The position numbers were made by a program, and so were the translations under genes. The notes under the pieces were generated by a model. It did no database searches, was not told where the DNA came from, and saw only the letters and a list, made by a program, of their open reading frames with translations. A stretch of 32,462 nt of DNA from a virus: positions 1-32,462 of the IMG/VR virus record IMGVR_UViG_3300034198_007235; one strand, 5' to 3'. Below are positions 2,898-24,516 of this stretch, in pieces (position 1 is the first letter of the stretch; every line of letters begins with the position of its first letter).

Positions 2898-4313
2898 CTA
2901 CAACAACATAAAGTTGTTAGCTCCTAATACTACTAAAGCTCTTTCAGATAAGAAGTTTACAGACATGCTGTCTACTTCACTGTTAGTTGCTCCACCAGCA
3001 GAACCAATAATCCAAGATTTGTATTTTCTATCCTCAGTTTCAGATTTTCTGTAACGAGTGTGTAAGAAAGGTCTCTTAGCGTTTTTACCTAATACTTGGT
3101 CATAAACTGTTAAAGTACCAGCAGGAACTAAAACTCCGTTTACTTCATTTACCAATCCACCAGTTGTAGCATCGTTAAGATATTTCCAATCAGTTTTGTA
3201 GAAATCATAACCTAAGTTAAATCCTTTAAATCCTAAGTTTAAAGCCATGTCTTTTTCGTTATCGAAAAGTCCATAAGAAGCTTGCATAACAGAAGAGTTA
3301 GAGATAGAAGCTAATACTTTATCAATATCAAAAGATAATTGACGATTAACGAAAAGAACGTTTTCTTGAATAGCACCCTCTTTGTCTAAAACTTTGATGA
3401 TGTTTTCAAGGTCTTCTCTATCAGAGATTGTACCAGTACCTACGTTACCTCTATTTTTGATTTCGTAGAATAAACCTTTAGTACCTTTATAACCAGCGCT
3501 TAAAGCGGCAGAACCAGCTACAGCAGGCTCTCCTTCAATCATAGAAGTCTCTAAGTAATCTTCAAAACGTAAACGAGTTTCGTGCTCTGATTTCAAGTAC
3601 CATAAGTAACCTGTAGCACCATTTTCAGTAGTAACTTCAATCCATCCGATTTGAGCCATATCTGAACCATTAACTTCATATTTATCTTTGATGATAATTG
3701 GAGTTGTGTCTAATACTTGAGACTCAGCTTCGATTGAACCAACCATTCCAGGAGTTCCTTTTTTGAACTCAGAACCGTAAACAAATACTTTTAATGCAGA
3801 TGCAGTAGAAGATAAAGCAGTTAAGTCAGCAGCAGAGAAAGGAGCAACAGTAATAACGTCACCTCCTGCAGATACAACAGTAACTAAAGCTTTAACAATA
3901 ACTCCTGTAGTAGAATCTTTGATGATGATAGTTTGGTTTGGTCTAACAGCTGGGTATTTAACTTGAGAACCTGAACCTGTTGAAGGTTGGTAAATACTTT
4001 GATTAGAATCAAAAGTAATTTGAGTAGCTGCTGTTTTAGAAGCAGTACCAAAGATGTGAAGACGACCTTGCTCACTCCATTTAATCATATCTGAAGTAGA
4101 AGGCATTTCAGCTCCAACCATTCTTAAGAATGATGCAACTGAACGATTACCGAATCTTTCAAATTCTTTTTCGTAAAGATCTGGAAGTTCGTGTGATAAG
4201 AAGTCAAATGTACCTACGTAGTTTGTAGATAATGTAGTTTTGACTGGAGCTGGTGTCAACAACGGAGCACCTGAGATGCTGTTGCTTGAAAAATTTACGG
4301 TGTTTAATGCCAT
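2898..4313 (-). CDS. Major capsid protein (HK97-fold, crAss-like)
   Basis: Main structural protein of the capsid, 471 residues, within the 450-510 range of crAss-like major capsid proteins. After a flexible N-terminus, residues about 35-90 contain LPDLYEKEFERFGNRSVASF and a following MVGAEMPSTSDMIKWSEQGR stretch. I recognise this as the N-arm/P-domain signature of crAss-like MCPs. There is no obvious prohead protease site, although N-terminal trimming cannot be excluded. The gene follows the acidic 352-aa gene by 22 bases with no promoter of its own, so both probably share the promoter at 5425-5432. A strong terminator follows. Position between the scaffold candidate and the ring genes matches the crAss-like order. 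Confidence 0.88.
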   Translation of the reverse strand: MALNTVNFSSNSISGAPLLTPAPVKTTLSTNYVGTFDFLSHELPDLYEKEFERFGNRSVASFLRMVGAEMPSTSDMIKWSEQGRLHIFGTASKTAATQITFDSNQSIYQPSTGSGSQVKYPAVRPNQTIIIKDSTTGVIVKALVTVVSAGGDVITVAPFSAADLTALSSTASALKVFVYGSEFKKGTPGMVGSIEAESQVLDTTPIIIKDKYEVNGSDMAQIGWIEVTTENGATGYLWYLKSEHETRLRFEDYLETSMIEGEPAVAGSAALSAGYKGTKGLFYEIKNRGNVGTGTISDREDLENIIKVLDKEGAIQENVLFVNRQLSFDIDKVLASISNSSVMQASYGLFDNEKDMALNLGFKGFNLGYDFYKTDWKYLNDATTGGLVNEVNGVLVPAGTLTVYDQVLGKNAKRPFLHTRYRKSETEDRKYKSWIIGSAGGATNSEVDSMSVNFLSERALVVLGANNFMLL

Positions 4314-7876: not shown

Positions 7877-10141
7877 TTACTTTATTATTTCGCTATGCAT
7901 TCCTTTGTTAGAATATCTTGCAAAATTAAACATTATTTCGGTATTATTTCTAATGGGTTTTTTAACATAAGTTTGATTTGCCATTATTGCAAGACCACTA
8001 CTAATAGTTGCATCAAACTTTGTACGATTAACTATATCAAAATTTGCCCAATCTAAAAGTGTTCTATTAAAATACATAGCTCCCATACTTCCTTCTTCCC
8101 TAAACTCACCGCTATAATCTATACCTACATATTGATTTATATAGGCTTCTATTGCATTTGCTTGTAACTCAATAGTTTGTGTAGATGATGGAATACCCCC
8201 TAGTTCTTTCTCTGAAGAAGACAAATCATTTTTATGTTTATCAGGTCTATTCAATGAGTAACCTCTATATCCTCTGTTTAAAAAATATTTTAATTGACCT
8301 ACTTTATTGTTCTCAATTAATATTGGCATACCATAAAATACACAAGCCATTAAACAATCTTCATAAAATTCTTCAGATGTTCTAGGTCTTGCTATATATT
8401 CTAAAAAGAAATGATTACTTGGTGCGTCATCCATATTAAATTTTGTAAGTCCGTGAAGAGAACCTTTAGAACCTCCACCTCCTACAACACCTGATATATC
8501 ATATGTATCACACCCAAAACTTCCTATGTGTGCATTTCCAGGATATTTCCTATCATTTTTAAACTCATAGTTATTACGCATCTCAGGTTTTGGTATCCAA
8601 GTAACTTTAAAGTTACCATCTTTGCTAGGTATCCAAACAACCTCACTATCTCTAACACCATTCTTCCAAGCAAACTTACCAGTAGATATCACTCTTGAAT
8701 GTTCTAATCCATCATTAGAATCTATTTGTTCGTATATTTTTGAAAGGTCAAATAAACTATTCTTTGCTTCATCACGGAATGCATGTCCTTCAGTTCTTGG
8801 ATTCTGTCTATAAAATTCATTTAAAGCATCGGAATCTTTCTTTAAAGACTCAACTTTATTCTCAAAGTAATCCAATACACCATCAAGTATGTATCCTCCT
8901 TGAATATCTTCAACTGGTTTCTCGGACTTTCTAAATACTGGGAATCCGTGTAAATCTATATATCCTTCAAAGTTCCATTCCATAGGAATAAATAAAGCAT
9001 ATAATCCACTCGCTGTTTGTCCGTTCTTATCTCTCTTTGTTACATCACTATCGTAATATAATTTTTTAAAATTAGCACCTCCATTAGCTTGTGAGTTACA
9101 CGTGCTACCCATCATACATTTACCTATAAGTTTACGACCAACTCTTAAACAAGTTTGAGTAACCCTCCAGTTATTCTGTATGTTATCAGGTTTTAACCAT
9201 TTACCACTTTCATCGTGTACAAGTAATTTTAATTTTTCTCCATCATAAGAGTTATCTCCTGTATTCTTCCAGTCAATAGAAGTATCTAAACCTTCCATTT
9301 CATCTTGAGCATCAAACATATTATTCTTAGTAATCTTTGAAGCTGGAACACGATAAGACAATTCAGTCTTTGGTTTATCCATACCATCCATAATAGGTTT
9401 GAAAAAGAAAGGATAATTACTTGAGATAGGAACTACTTTGTCTGTAAACATTTTTTTAGCATCACCTCCTGTTTTAGAAAGGATACCAAGTCTTGCATCT
9501 TTTGCAAGTGTTGCTATATTTACAAGTTCAGAGCTACCCATAAATGAAAAACCTGAACGTCTATTTTTTAAATAACACATTCCGAAACTTCTACTATCTG
9601 CTTTACAAGCTTCCCAAAATATCCAAAATATTCTATTACTCTCTCTAAATTCAGGGAGACCAATATCTATTTTAGTCCATTGAAGATACATATAGTGAGA
9701 CCCAGTTATATAAGATGGTTTACCATTGTTCATAAAGAACATTCCTTCTTCCCTTCTGTCAAACTCATTGTCTATATAAGATGTCCATTTTGACTTAAAA
9801 TCATTAGGCATCTCGTTCCACTGAAATATACTTTTTATTTTATGTAATTCTTTAGGATATTCAAAGCTTTCCCAATATTGATTCTCAGGTTTTTTGTCAC
9901 GTTTATATACTAAATTTGTTACAGAAGGTAAGGCTATTTTCAGTCCTTGCACTTCATAAACTTCACCTACAGTTCCATCTTTAGATATGACAACAACATC
10001 AAATTCAGGATTGTATCCATAAGACCATTCCTTCTTTTTATTTAGTCTATCTAAATCTTTTTTAGGTATACAATCTACAATAGAGTAAATGCTACTTTCC
10101 TTTGCTTCTTCTTTCTGCAAAGCTTTCAAATTTTTGCTCAT
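7877..10141 (-). CDS. terL: Terminase large subunit (TerL)
   Basis: ATP-driven DNA packaging motor and headful nuclease, 754 residues, the usual crAss-like size. The ATPase domain has a deviant Walker A around residues 193-199 (NRRSGFS), a Walker B LKLLVHDE at 304-311 ending in the catalytic Glu311, and a coupling motif GSTCNS at 345-350. The nuclease domain begins near 540 with SFGCDTYDISG (Asp545 as a likely metal ligand) and continues with PILIENN (Glu610). The N-terminal ~170 residues are an extension typical of this phage group. The gene overlaps the preceding 95-aa gene by 50 bases, which suggests coupled translation, and is followed by portal after 9 bases. Confidence 0.93.
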   Translation of the reverse strand: MSKNLKALQKEEAKESSIYSIVDCIPKKDLDRLNKKKEWSYGYNPEFDVVVISKDGTVGEVYEVQGLKIALPSVTNLVYKRDKKPENQYWESFEYPKELHKIKSIFQWNEMPNDFKSKWTSYIDNEFDRREEGMFFMNNGKPSYITGSHYMYLQWTKIDIGLPEFRESNRIFWIFWEACKADSRSFGMCYLKNRRSGFSFMGSSELVNIATLAKDARLGILSKTGGDAKKMFTDKVVPISSNYPFFFKPIMDGMDKPKTELSYRVPASKITKNNMFDAQDEMEGLDTSIDWKNTGDNSYDGEKLKLLVHDESGKWLKPDNIQNNWRVTQTCLRVGRKLIGKCMMGSTCNSQANGGANFKKLYYDSDVTKRDKNGQTASGLYALFIPMEWNFEGYIDLHGFPVFRKSEKPVEDIQGGYILDGVLDYFENKVESLKKDSDALNEFYRQNPRTEGHAFRDEAKNSLFDLSKIYEQIDSNDGLEHSRVISTGKFAWKNGVRDSEVVWIPSKDGNFKVTWIPKPEMRNNYEFKNDRKYPGNAHIGSFGCDTYDISGVVGGGGSKGSLHGLTKFNMDDAPSNHFFLEYIARPRTSEEFYEDCLMACVFYGMPILIENNKVGQLKYFLNRGYRGYSLNRPDKHKNDLSSSEKELGGIPSSTQTIELQANAIEAYINQYVGIDYSGEFREEGSMGAMYFNRTLLDWANFDIVNRTKFDATISSGLAIMANQTYVKKPIRNNTEIMFNFARYSNKGMHSEIIK

Positions 10142-10405: not shown

Positions 10406-10438
10406 TAAAAAAAATGCCTTCTGTTTTAGAAGGCATTT
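10406..10438 (-). terminator. Rho-independent terminator after the collagen-like fibre gene
   Basis: On the minus strand AAATGCCTTC pairs with GAAGGCATTT (10 bp, loop of 7), followed by a T-rich tract. It is 20 bases past the stop of the fibre gene. The outer A-T pairs make the stem symmetric, so some activity on the plus strand is possible. Confidence 0.88.
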
Positions 10439-10458: not shown

Positions 10459-11922
10459 TTACAATGTAATTTCATTGTATGTAACATACACATCTAAACT
10501 TCCTGTACCTCCTGTTGGATTTCCTCCAACTGCTTTTAATTTATAAGCTCCAGTGGTAGCAGTTCCAGTAACGCTATCTACAATATATAGAGTTGAATTT
10601 ATATATCCAACCTGATTGATTGTTAATGGATTAGGGTTTATTGTATTTTGAGTATCGTTATTAAATTGATCAAGTAACTGCAAAGAGTTGTTAACCAAAG
10701 TATAAGAGTTACCAACATTTCTTCTAATATATAGATTTGTAGGTATGTTTACTTTTCCAGCTGATGGAGCAGGCAATACAACAATAGGAGTTGTAAATAA
10801 CTGCAATACTTGCGCTTGAGAAATAGTTGTTTTTAAAGTCTTTGTAACGATAGTACCAACAGCAAGTGTTCCTGTTTCATTTGGAAACTTAATAAGCTGA
10901 TTACCTGTTAATGTATTTGGTAAAGACAATGCAATGTAATTTGCTCCATTATTAAGTACAATACGATCTGGTTCTAAAAATGAAGTTCCACCACCAGCAA
11001 AAGCTGTTAAAATTTGTCCTGCTGATAAAATAGTTTGATAACTTCCAGCTGAAATTGTATTTCCTACATCGCAAACAGATTGTAAAGAAGGTGAAAATGA
11101 TGATATATCACTTAATAAAGCAACAGTACCACTATTATCAGGAAATTGAATAGTTCTTGCAGCAGATAATGAACTTGGAGGAATTATCTCCAAACTATTA
11201 GCGCCAGCTTTAGTGAATGATAATTTATCCGCAGCTAAAAATGATTCATCATTAGTTATTAGATTACTAACAGCAAAAGAAGCTGAATTTATAAATGACT
11301 GATAATTCGTAGTTGTAACTGTATTACCTAAGTTAATAGTGTCTTGTAATGTTTGAGTAGCAACTCCAATTGGTCCTTGAGGTCCAGTAGCACCAGTAGC
11401 ACCAGTAGGTCCAGCAGGTCCTACAGCTCCTTGAGAAGCTAATAAAGCCCAGTTTGATGTAGCAACAGTTGGATTAGATGTTCCAGATGTAGCTAAAATA
11501 CAAAAATAAGAAGCTCCGTTGTAACCAACTGCGTCATTTAAAATATAAGAAGTTCCTGAAACCCAAGAACCTCTCCAACGAAGTCCAGCAGGTCCTACAG
11601 GTCCTTGTGGTCCAGCAGGTCCAGTAGGTCCGATAGAAGTTAATGTATTATCATCTAAAATAACTTTTAAATCATTAATTAAAGATGCTAAACTAGTGTA
11701 AGCTACGTTAACTGAATTAAATATTTTTTCTACTTCACAAGACAAAATAATACTTCCAGTATATTTTTCTTTAATAACAACTACAACTTTGTTTCCTGGA
11801 GCTACAAATTCATTTGAAGACTCACTAACGTTTACGTTTTCATAGGTTGCTACATAATCTTTTTTTCTGTACAATAGTCCATTTACTTTAAAGTACCTAG
11901 AATCATGATTTTCAATTTTCAT
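10459..11922 (-). CDS. Collagen-like fibre protein with a putative carbohydrate-binding module
   Basis: A 487-residue virion fibre. Residues 1-96 form a beta-rich N-terminal domain. Two collagen Gly-X-Y blocks follow: IGPTGPAGPQGPVGPAG at about 97-113 and VGPAGPTGATGATGPQGPIG at 167-186. Between them residues 114-162 have the aromatic spacing of a small chitin-binding-like module (WRGSW, YILNDAVGYNGASYFC, then a terminal SNWALLA). The C-terminal part carries repeated fibre modules with LQ-x-GNT and FPDNSGTVAL or FPNETGTLAV, also present in the 1504-aa fibre. Collagen blocks trimerise fibres, and the module probably binds host surface glycans. It has its own promoter (11955-11962) and terminator. 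Whether it decorates the capsid or tail cannot be told. Confidence 0.75.
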   Translation of the reverse strand: MKIENHDSRYFKVNGLLYRKKDYVATYENVNVSESSNEFVAPGNKVVVVIKEKYTGSIILSCEVEKIFNSVNVAYTSLASLINDLKVILDDNTLTSIGPTGPAGPQGPVGPAGLRWRGSWVSGTSYILNDAVGYNGASYFCILATSGTSNPTVATSNWALLASQGAVGPAGPTGATGATGPQGPIGVATQTLQDTINLGNTVTTTNYQSFINSASFAVSNLITNDESFLAADKLSFTKAGANSLEIIPPSSLSAARTIQFPDNSGTVALLSDISSFSPSLQSVCDVGNTISAGSYQTILSAGQILTAFAGGGTSFLEPDRIVLNNGANYIALSLPNTLTGNQLIKFPNETGTLAVGTIVTKTLKTTISQAQVLQLFTTPIVVLPAPSAGKVNIPTNLYIRRNVGNSYTLVNNSLQLLDQFNNDTQNTINPNPLTINQVGYINSTLYIVDSVTGTATTGAYKLKAVGGNPTGGTGSLDVYVTYNEITL

Positions 11923-11970: not shown

Positions 11971-12540
11971 TTAGTTTAGTTTTAACACCACATCTCTATC
12001 TGTCATCCTGTATAACTTCTCACCATCTATTTCAAACTCATACTCACTATTCTTTGTAAATGCAACTAAATCTCCTTTTTTAAATCCTAAATCTTCTTGA
12101 GATTTGTTTGGATATATTAAAATACCTGAGTGCTTCTCTTCTTTATCAACATTATGTAGTAATTCATCTTGAATAGTATCGATTGGTTTTACAAAACAAA
12201 AGTTCAAATGTGGATTCCATTCTCCATTATTTCTTTTATACATATAAATCCTATCAGGACTTACTATAAATACACCTTCTCTAAAATACTCTGGAGAATT
12301 AGTTTGTCTACCTTTCATATCAAAATAAACTCTAAATATATTGTGATGTAAAATAACTATGTCTCCAACACAAATATCTCCACTGTAATTTATAGGAATA
12401 GCATCTACAACTCCAAGTCTATTTACATACTTTGCTATTTCTAAAGAGGTGTTAACAACAAAGTCTTCACCTCCTACTTTTTTAATATTATTGTACTTAT
12501 CACCATAAGGCGATATTATAAAATTATATGGACTTTTCAT
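11971..12540 (-). CDS. Tandem (two-barrel) GroES-like co-chaperonin, 189 aa
   Basis: Contains two consecutive GroES-like beta-barrels. Barrel 1 (about 1-105) opens with FIISPYGDKYNNIKKVGGED and contains SGDICVGDIVILHHN at 53-67. Barrel 2 (about 112-189) opens with NFCFVKPID and ends in FKKGDLVAFTKNSEYEFEID and GEKLYRMTDRDVVLKL, which follows the Cpn10 C-terminal pattern of GD-V, a beta-turn, then a 'Y-x-h-x-x-x-D' strand. I recall similar ~190-residue proteins in marine and Bacteroidetes phages. I chose the start at 12540 rather than an upstream Met at 12570 because it lies 1 base after the stop of the 74-aa gene. Likely role: capping a GroEL ring, perhaps the phage's own, during folding of fibre or capsid proteins. 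Assignment is from motif resemblance. Confidence 0.6.
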   Translation of the reverse strand: MKSPYNFIISPYGDKYNNIKKVGGEDFVVNTSLEIAKYVNRLGVVDAIPINYSGDICVGDIVILHHNIFRVYFDMKGRQTNSPEYFREGVFIVSPDRIYMYKRNNGEWNPHLNFCFVKPIDTIQDELLHNVDKEEKHSGILIYPNKSQEDLGFKKGDLVAFTKNSEYEFEIDGEKLYRMTDRDVVLKLN

Positions 12541-12541
12541 A

Positions 12542-12766
12542 TTAGTAATTAATGTTAAATTCAACAACAATAGGAAGATTTTTATTTATATTCTTCCATA
12601 TTACCACTTCTTTATCATCATTTTCTATCCATACAAAATACCCTAAATCATCTACAGTTATAGCGTGTATTTTATAATTACCTCCAAGAACTTCTTGATT
12701 AACTAAATAGTGCATTGAATTTTTATAATCAACACCAATAGTTATTTTTCTTATTTCATTTTTCAT
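12542..12766 (-). CDS. Hypothetical protein, 74 aa
   Basis: A 74-residue beta-rich protein with no motif I recognise. It alternates hydrophobic strands and polar turns (GNYKIHAITVDDLGYFVWIE) and is slightly acidic. Its stop is 1 base before the start of the double GroES-like gene, and it is the first gene after the promoter at 12788-12795, so the two are translated from one message. A role linked to the co-chaperonin is only an inference from that arrangement. Confidence 0.6.
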   Translation of the reverse strand: MKNEIRKITIGVDYKNSMHYLVNQEVLGGNYKIHAITVDDLGYFVWIENDDKEVVIWKNINKNLPIVVEFNINY

Positions 12767-23562: not shown

Positions 23563-23870
23563 TATTTTTTCTTTTTAAATCTTTCTCCTACTCCTGAAGT
23601 TTTACCTTCTCTATATACTTTAGATTTTGGACTCCATAAATCGTGCATAGCCCAATAACCTGCTGTTAACTTAGATTGGTTTCCTTCTCCAGCGTGTCTT
23701 TGTTTGTATTGCTTTCTTGCTTCAGGACTATAATTAGAACTATATCCTTTAGCTCCATATCTCACTATTTTTTCTTGTCCTCCAGAGCAAGCTTTAACAA
23801 CTCTTTTGTGCTTACCATCGTTAGCAGGTCTAGGTTTGTTGCAAGGCATATTTTTTTTATCTATCGGCAT
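23562..23870 (-). CDS. Conserved basic phage protein, 102 aa
   Basis: A 102-residue basic protein with PCNKPRPANDGKHKRVVKAC near the N-terminus, IVRYGAKGYSSNYSPEARKQ at about 34-53, then RHAGEGNQSKLTAGYWAMHD and LWSPKSK. I recognise this pattern (RYGA-GY-x-NYS-EAR and KLTA-YWA-xDLWSP) from a conserved family in podophage structural regions. Function is unknown. It is the first gene of the long late unit that runs left to about 12.8 kb and starts 64 bases after the -7 element at 23934-23941. A second Met at residue 8 (23849) is an alternative start. Confidence 0.7.
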   Translation of the reverse strand: MPIDKKNMPCNKPRPANDGKHKRVVKACSGGQEKIVRYGAKGYSSNYSPEARKQYKQRHAGEGNQSKLTAGYWAMHDLWSPKSKVYREGKTSGVGERFKKKK

Positions 23871-23933
23871 ATGTATGTTATTTAAAACTTTTACTTATGT
23901 TTTGTATGGAATAGCATACTTTCATAATCTGTG

Positions 23934-23941
23934 CAAAGTTA
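23934..23941 (-). promoter_or_regulatory. -7 element for the long fibre/lysis unit
   Basis: The minus strand reads TAACTTTG followed by CAC, an exact TAnnTTTG match. No other match was found in the intergenic gaps between here and about 12.8 kb, so it probably drives the whole 11-kb leftward unit. It faces the plus-strand element at 23957-23964. The outer ends of the two are 31 bases apart. Confidence 0.65.
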
Positions 23942-23956
23942 CATATTTTTTTGTAT

Positions 23957-23964
23957 TATATTTG
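23957..23964 (+). promoter_or_regulatory. -7 element for the winged-helix gene
   Basis: TATATTTG on the plus strand, an exact TAnnTTTG match, 21 bases before the ATG at 23986. It overlaps the region where RNA polymerase would sit for the opposite promoter. Confidence 0.65.
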
Positions 23965-23985
23965 TTGTATAAAATCAAATTTAAT

Positions 23986-24516
23986 ATGCCTAGAATAGCT
24001 GGTAGAAGAAGAATGTATAAAAAGGGTGAGAGAAAATATACTACCCAAAAGAAAAAATTAGAGAAGAAGCCTGCGTACTTTTTTAGTGAGAAAGCATCTT
24101 CTTATTTAAAATATATGCGTGTAGTTAGAAAATACATACAAAAGAAACACGGTGTTAGTTTATCTGAGTTAGAGCTTATATTGTATCTATATGATGAAAC
24201 AATATTTGATAAAAAAACATTTGAAGGATACGGAGTAATTCTTGGGTTTACTTCTTTAGATTGGTTTTCTAAATTAAAAGAAAGGGAGATAATTAAAGTT
24301 TGGAGAGATGAACCAGGATATAAAAGATTGTTTACTTTAACGCATAAATATAAACTTATGTGTAATAGTTTTTACAAACACCTAGAAGGTGAACCAATAC
24401 CTACAAATGTAAATCAAAATCCACTATTTAAAAGTAATGCCTCTTTTAGTGAAAAGATGTATGCAAGACTTATAAAACAGATGAATGCAAAAAGAGAGGA
24501 AAAGAAACAAATCTAA
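23986..24516 (+). CDS. Winged-helix (MarR-like) DNA-binding protein, 176 aa
   Basis: The only sizeable plus-strand gene within the late region. A strongly basic N-terminus (RIAGRRRMYKKGERKYTTQK) is followed by a winged-helix-type domain at about 40-135: helices around VRKYIQKKHGVSLSELELIL, the recognition-helix region LGFTSLDWFSKLKEREIIKV, and a wing WRDEPGYKRLFTLTH. The layout resembles MarR-type regulators, and I recall similar proteins in Bacteroidetes phages. I chose the start at 23986, not an open upstream extension to 23806, because it follows the TATATTTG element and the upstream part would overlap the divergent gene. Likely a transcription factor acting on the divergent promoter it shares with the fibre/lysis unit. 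Confidence 0.65.
   Translation: MPRIAGRRRMYKKGERKYTTQKKKLEKKPAYFFSEKASSYLKYMRVVRKYIQKKHGVSLSELELILYLYDETIFDKKTFEGYGVILGFTSLDWFSKLKEREIIKVWRDEPGYKRLFTLTHKYKLMCNSFYKHLEGEPIPTNVNQNPLFKSNASFSEKMYARLIKQMNAKREEKKQI

Follow-up and report, generated by a model that had tools for sequence, protein, structure and literature searches.

Bacteroidota viruses carry their own GroEL together with two different GroES-like genes, one ordinary and one a predicted double barrel

Certain viruses of Bacteroidota carry their own GroEL with two different lids, one ordinary and one fused double. The newly recognised arrangement is a conserved triad of a phage GroEL, an adjoining single GroES, and a distant gene for a double-barrel GroES-like protein (hereafter, the double lid). 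It is described here for the window, which is the whole 32,462-nucleotide stretch of viral DNA that was analysed (IMG/VR record IMGVR_UViG_3300034198_007235), and for its relatives. With a probability of roughly 70%, we regard the double lid as a tandem lid that serves the phage's own GroEL, is docked via the loops of the N-terminal barrels, and is used late for virion proteins. One chain would form two GroES/Cpn10 barrels head to tail in a Cpn20-like build, and several such chains would lie side by side in a ring capping the phage GroEL. The N-terminal barrel would dock on the GroEL apical domains by its conserved mobile loop with the hydrophobic tripeptide, and the C-terminal barrel, of which the loop is degenerate, would fill out the ring. 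Late in infection, the double lid would most likely replace or join the single lid and thereby fold virion proteins, comparable to T4 gp31 and gp23. All features are compiled in Table 1.

Table 1. Position and basis of the features discussed in the text.
Feature	Position	Strand	Basis or remark
Double-barrel GroES-like co-chaperonin gene	11971..12540	minus	189 aa; PHROG 13932 match
N-terminal barrel (predicted), residues 1-105	12226..12540	minus	AlphaFold2 model, Foldseek, hhalign
N-barrel mobile-loop region, residues 12-41, conserved	12418..12507	minus	alignment of homologues
Hydrophobic GroES-like tripeptide FVV of the N loop, residues 27-29	12454-12462	minus	98/123 homologues
HHN motif, residues 65-67, near-invariant	12340..12348	minus	alignment of homologues
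Inter-barrel linker, short, residues 103-112, conserved Trp108	12205..12234	minus	model and alignment
C-terminal barrel, residues 113-189, classical Cpn10 C-terminal region	11974..12204	minus	Pfam Cpn10, hhalign
C-barrel loop, residues 121-137, short and variable, lacking the hydrophobic tripeptide	12130..12180	minus	tripeptide in 6/123 homologues
Protein of 74 aa, of unknown function	12542..12766	minus	immediately 5' of the double-lid gene
Terminase large subunit, a conserved neighbour on the downstream side of the double lid	7877..10141	minus	synteny
Virion structural protein, likely major capsid protein	2898..4313	minus	PHROG 13704
Single-barrel phage GroES, 86 aa, canonical mobile loop	24734..24994	minus	Pfam Cpn10, 33.9 bits
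Phage GroEL, 525 aa	24998..26575	minus	retains the ATPase residues, lacks the inter-ring residues and the GGM tail

Gene, family and conservation

The gene was assigned an ATG start at position 12540. A TTG lies 30 nt further out and would extend the protein to 199 aa, and the ATG is preferred since the homologues begin there. All 24 double-lid members of alignment A2 match PHROG 13932 ('co-chaperonin GroES'), hence the gene family as such is already known; the protein of the window aligns to it with residues 1-185 over profile positions 1-196 of 200 (E 8.7e-23). Bartlau et al. listed a 'chaperonin cpn10' as a core protein of the Pervagoviridae (PMC8776804), and homologues of GroEL and GroES are noted in the Panino paper (PMC11590407). 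Within the literature searched, of which the coverage was partial, no description of the tandem build or of two lids was found. With general models, the whole protein scores 19.2 bits to Pfam Cpn10 (PF00166; cut-off 21.1) and has an E-value of 3e-4 to NCBIfam GroES, which is below that model's own cut-off.

The scan of IMG/VR with one query sequence returned 50 relatives of full or near-full length, and the family profile extended this to at least 594 contigs. Furthermore, annotated phage records with the double lid number 77 (68 Flavobacterium elemo, 7 Cellulophaga, 1 Maribacter, and 1 uncultured), and 20 contigs that carry it had been assigned to genome bins of bacteria or archaea, for the most part Bacteroidota. 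The dN/dS of approximately 0.13 in both halves indicates purifying selection, and on the grounds of this value and the IMG/VR relatives, a spurious open reading frame or a chance resemblance was rejected. A role as a virion protein was set aside as well, as the gene is unmarked in phi40:1, where structural proteins had been assigned by MS/MS, although this is weak negative evidence.

Predicted fold of the two halves

The initial annotation had proposed two Cpn10 barrels in one chain of 189 aa, with a GD-V strand pattern in both halves. The two barrels were borne out, the C-terminal one by sequence and the N-terminal one by predicted fold, and the strand pattern is present as VGDIV (residues 58-62) and KGDLV (residues 155-159). 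In the profile comparisons, a strong Cpn10 match was obtained for the C-terminal half only. Scanned alone, this half reaches 21.7 bits with Pfam Cpn10 (cut-off 21.1), and hhalign aligned it to bacterial Cpn10 over 76 of 81 columns with an E-value of 6e-9, and to a merged profile of bacterial and phage Cpn10 with 7e-11. It is a Cpn10 domain as judged by sequence.

For the N-terminal half, the sequence and profile searches of Pfam, NCBIfam, and PDB gave no Cpn10 match. The hhalign comparison with the merged profile yielded an E-value of 0.0018 in the expected register, a score that was reached by none of 200 column-shuffled profiles. For this half, structure carries the decisive evidence: an AlphaFold2 model of residues 1-105, built from 72 sequences, has a pLDDT of 90.9 and a pTM of 0.78, and the 13 best Foldseek matches of this model in the PDB are all GroES/Cpn10 chains. 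The top match spans the whole half with TM-scores of 0.52/0.58 and a probability of 1.00, while r.m.s.d. values are high at 5-8 A and the best E-value is only 0.008. By its predicted fold, the N-terminal half is a GroES/Cpn10 barrel, with weak profile support.

The best PDB sequence match of the N-half profile was LpxA (E 0.003) via an HNxFRxY-like stretch. The segment in question, HHNVFRxYxDMKG at residues 65-82 (about 12295-12348), resembles the HNxFREY...KGT segment of LpxA. As the predicted fold differs, with GroES/Cpn10 chains and no LpxA among the matches listed, the likeness was judged coincidental. Matches to HupF/HypC (E 0.22) and to DUF1953 (E 0.05) did not reach the threshold and were rejected. 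In the alignment, the HHN motif adjoins the position of GroES Tyr71, which we take to be a cavity-facing site, and the motif would accordingly be placed towards the cavity.

The model of the full-length protein has a pLDDT of 76 and a pTM of 0.72, with low confidence at residues 31-38 and 124-133. The GroES fold that had been anticipated for the monomer was recovered, and the best PDB match is Cpn20 of Chlamydomonas (7ekq chain R), with TM-scores of 0.57/0.56 over 209 columns and an E-value of 3e-6. As single Cpn10 chains reach TM-scores of only about 0.30 against the full model, both barrels superpose together on Cpn20, and this joint superposition favours barrels that lie side by side and head to tail. 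In the comparison with predicted structures of viral proteins, the 'Chaperonin cpn10' of Cellulophaga phage phi18:3 was one of the best matches. With all structures being predicted, the GroES beta-barrel fold was thus found in each half: by Foldseek for the N-terminal half, by hhalign for the C-terminal half, and by the model for the whole.

Mobile loops

The two barrels differ in their loops, a difference that the initial annotation had not foreseen. Three consecutive hydrophobic residues, as in the GroES tripeptide, are present in the N loop of 98 of 123 homologues and in the C loop of only 6, and the same tripeptide is found in the loop of 32 of 34 phage single GroES proteins. Across the 123 homologues, the N loop is almost as conserved as its barrel (mean entropy of 1.76 vs 1.60 bits), whereas the C loop is poorly conserved and variable in length (2.57 vs 1.59 bits). 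A Cpn10-type tripeptide loop thus occurs in the N-terminal barrel only, and judging from these alignments, this barrel alone has kept the canonical GroEL-binding motif. As the C-terminal barrel is devoid of it, the double lid may bind GroEL at only about half of its positions.

Neighbouring genes and expression

Directly upstream of the double lid, a gene for a protein of about 74 aa was found in 116 of 116 loci. Its usual overlap of 1 or 4 nt with the start of the lid gene implies that the two are translationally coupled. Matches to this gene are essentially restricted to phages with a double lid. The protein has the consensus IRKISIGxDYKNAMHYxVGQxVLGG...WKxFN...EYNI, and searches against Pfam, PHROGs, NCBIfam, and PDB gave no meaningful match.

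In every annotated relative, the double lid lies between the gene of about 74 aa and the terminase, portal, and capsid genes. The proximity to fibre genes that was noted at first holds for this window; however, it is a local accident, and the conserved neighbours are the 74-aa gene and the terminase/portal/capsid module. A collagen-like tail-fibre gene (10459-11922, minus strand) stands between the double lid and the terminase here and is missing at this site in the annotated relatives; it is a local insertion. A good terminator-like hairpin with a T run (10412-10438, minus strand) is located 3' of the inserted fibre gene and splits the lid and fibre genes from the terminase unit.

Different promoters had been suggested for the two lids. 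In elemo NC_055853 and Calle_1, the GroEL/GroES pair is on the strand opposite the double lid, so that the two lids must come from separate transcripts in the elemo and Calle phages. To this extent the suggestion holds, but promoter scans of the window (sigma-70 and Bacteroidetes-type TTTG/TAnnTTTG) gave nothing above chance. An open reading frame on the plus strand (23806-24516; 236 aa from a TTG, with a probable shorter start inside) separates the groES/groEL pair, which is on the minus strand, from the structural genes. With regard to timing, gene order and the likeness to gp31 suggest that the double lid would be expressed late, together with the head proteins; T4 requires gp31 for the folding of its capsid protein (PMC3012670). 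Expression from the packaging and head module, apart from groEL-groES, makes a late lid role the most likely one, and the likely major capsid protein would be a candidate client.

The triad and the chaperonin partner

The GroEL gene and the 86-aa GroES-like gene, beside which the double lid had been described as a possible second lid, were both confirmed as real genes. The double lid, GroEL, and single GroES are present together in each of the five complete phages that were examined (elemo NC_055853, MW202828, Panino, Calle_1, and phi40:1), with the single GroES at most about 350 nt from GroEL. In IMG/VR contigs with a detectable GroEL, the single GroES is adjacent in 29 of 29. All 11 contigs that reach 17 kb or more to the 5' side of the double lid contain GroEL, as do 14 of the 16 that reach 14 kb or more. 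One of the two exceptions ends short of the GroEL distance seen in a close relative, and the other belongs to a Cellulophaga-like group, where the GroEL/GroES pair sits elsewhere. Among the phage genomes covered well enough to judge, none was found to have the double lid but no GroEL of its own. Conversely, related GroELs without a double lid are common among phages (258 vs 77 records). That the double lid is seen only alongside a phage GroEL favours this GroEL as its partner. Many of the Bacteroidota genomes searched have a second, longer GroES-like open reading frame (about 130-150 aa, 40-49 bits to Cpn10) beside the ordinary GroES.

The ATPase residues Asp52, Asp87, Asp398, and Asp495 are retained in the phage GroELs, of which the apical groove is altered. 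These GroELs are devoid of the GGM tail and mostly of the inter-ring residues of host GroELs (Arg452, Glu461, and neighbours). By analogy with the chaperonins of OBP and AR9, which are single rings (PMC9598537), they may be single rings as well.

Alternative readings

A possible, though rather unlikely, alternative is that the two genes make one lid, in which three double chains and one single GroES form a ring of seven barrels. The arithmetic (3 x 2 + 1 = 7), the constant company of both genes in complete genomes, and the superposition of the model on Cpn20 agree with such a mixed lid, and precedents exist in the seven-domain hetero-oligomers of plastids (PMC5780408) and in the CPN11/CPN20/CPN23 heterotetramer on ClpP of Chlamydomonas (PMC8889267). 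However, tandem lids of six or eight barrels are also functional in vitro (PMC5780408), and the separate transcription units on opposite strands in the elemo and Calle phages mildly disfavour a synthesis at a fixed ratio of 3:1. The complete picture of a compound seven-barrel lid, with GroEL-binding loops at four of seven positions, namely on the three N-terminal barrels and the single chain, and three apical domains left free, is unlikely; if true, such a lid would match the Cpn20/Cpn10 lid of plastids but would have evolved independently of it.

It is less likely again that the double lid serves the host GroEL and the single GroES the phage GroEL, a division of labour of the kind raised in the initial annotation. 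T4 gp31 acts in this way on the host GroEL for capsid folding (PMC3012670), and it is the single GroES that lies beside the phage GroEL gene. Nevertheless, nothing in the data points to the host chaperonin: a phage GroEL accompanies the double lid in all neighbourhoods with sufficient coverage, whereas GroEL frequently occurs without the double lid, and this constant presence argues against host dependence.

We consider it improbable that the GroES folds were reused for another job, such as the capping of host ClpP, terminase or portal assembly, or work with the 74-aa partner. The nearest fold match does stem from a co-chaperonin ring bound to ClpP (PMC8889267), the 74-aa partner always adjoins, and the C-barrel loop has lost the GroEL-binding motif, but the tripeptide of the N-terminal barrel is conserved and GroEL always co-occurs. 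A lid of two tiers, in which the N-terminal barrels of seven chains sit on GroEL and the C-terminal barrels are stacked outside as an enlarged dome, would explain the canonical motif in the N-terminal barrel only, yet it is also improbable, since the linker is short and the monomer model superposes in a Cpn20-like manner, both of which favour side-by-side barrels.

Comparison with known systems

The preferred reading, in which a tandem lid caps the phage's own GroEL, can be set against four groups of proteins. The closest in sequence are the PHROG 13932 proteins of the elemo, Calle, phi40:1, phi18:3, and Panino phages, which belong to the same family, match over the full length, and occupy the same site beside TerL. 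Their annotation is silent on the two-barrel tandem, on the accompanying second lid and GroEL, and on the loop motif in one barrel only. New are the triad, the tripeptide confined to the N-terminal barrel unlike in Cpn20, the upstream gene of about 74 aa, and the terminase and head genes as conserved neighbours.

The closest in predicted architecture is the plastid and apicoplast Cpn20 (7ekq chains R and Q), in which two GroES domains likewise follow each other head to tail within some 190 aa, and both proteins coexist with a single-barrel Cpn10. The double lid differs in being viral, in an identity of about 15%, and in the shortened C-barrel loop without tripeptide. While it shares the head-to-tail arrangement, it departs from Cpn20 in its loops, as Cpn20 keeps mobile loops in both domains (PMC3542282). 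The double form of co-chaperonin has been called specific to eukaryotes of plant lineages (PMC3542282). The sequences were judged too divergent for a reliable tree and we assume independent fusions, so that the double lid was not filed as a Cpn20.

T4 gp31 and RB49 CocO are, like the double lid, phage-made GroES-like lids with a proposed capsid client, and gp31 (1g31) is among the PDB fold matches of the full model. In contrast to the double lid, they are single barrels that work with the host GroEL, and no phage GroEL is involved.

Lastly, the phages EL, OBP, and AR9 encode GroEL homologues, as is the case here, but these act without a co-chaperonin (PMC9598537, PMC7185714), whereas the phage GroEL described here has two lid genes. 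The phage GroELs studied to date act lidless (PMC9598537); here, a phage encodes both a normal and a double lid in addition to a GroEL of its own. This widespread viral family offers a small natural system for the fit of an even-numbered lid to a seven-fold chaperonin. It raises the questions of how many mobile loops are needed for chamber closure, which is directly testable since the C-terminal barrel is devoid of the loop motif, and of whether viruses switch lids for capsid folding. Unlike the lidless phage chaperonins, the GroEL described here is accompanied by lid genes, and the double lid resembles Cpn20 in its predicted build but not in its loops.
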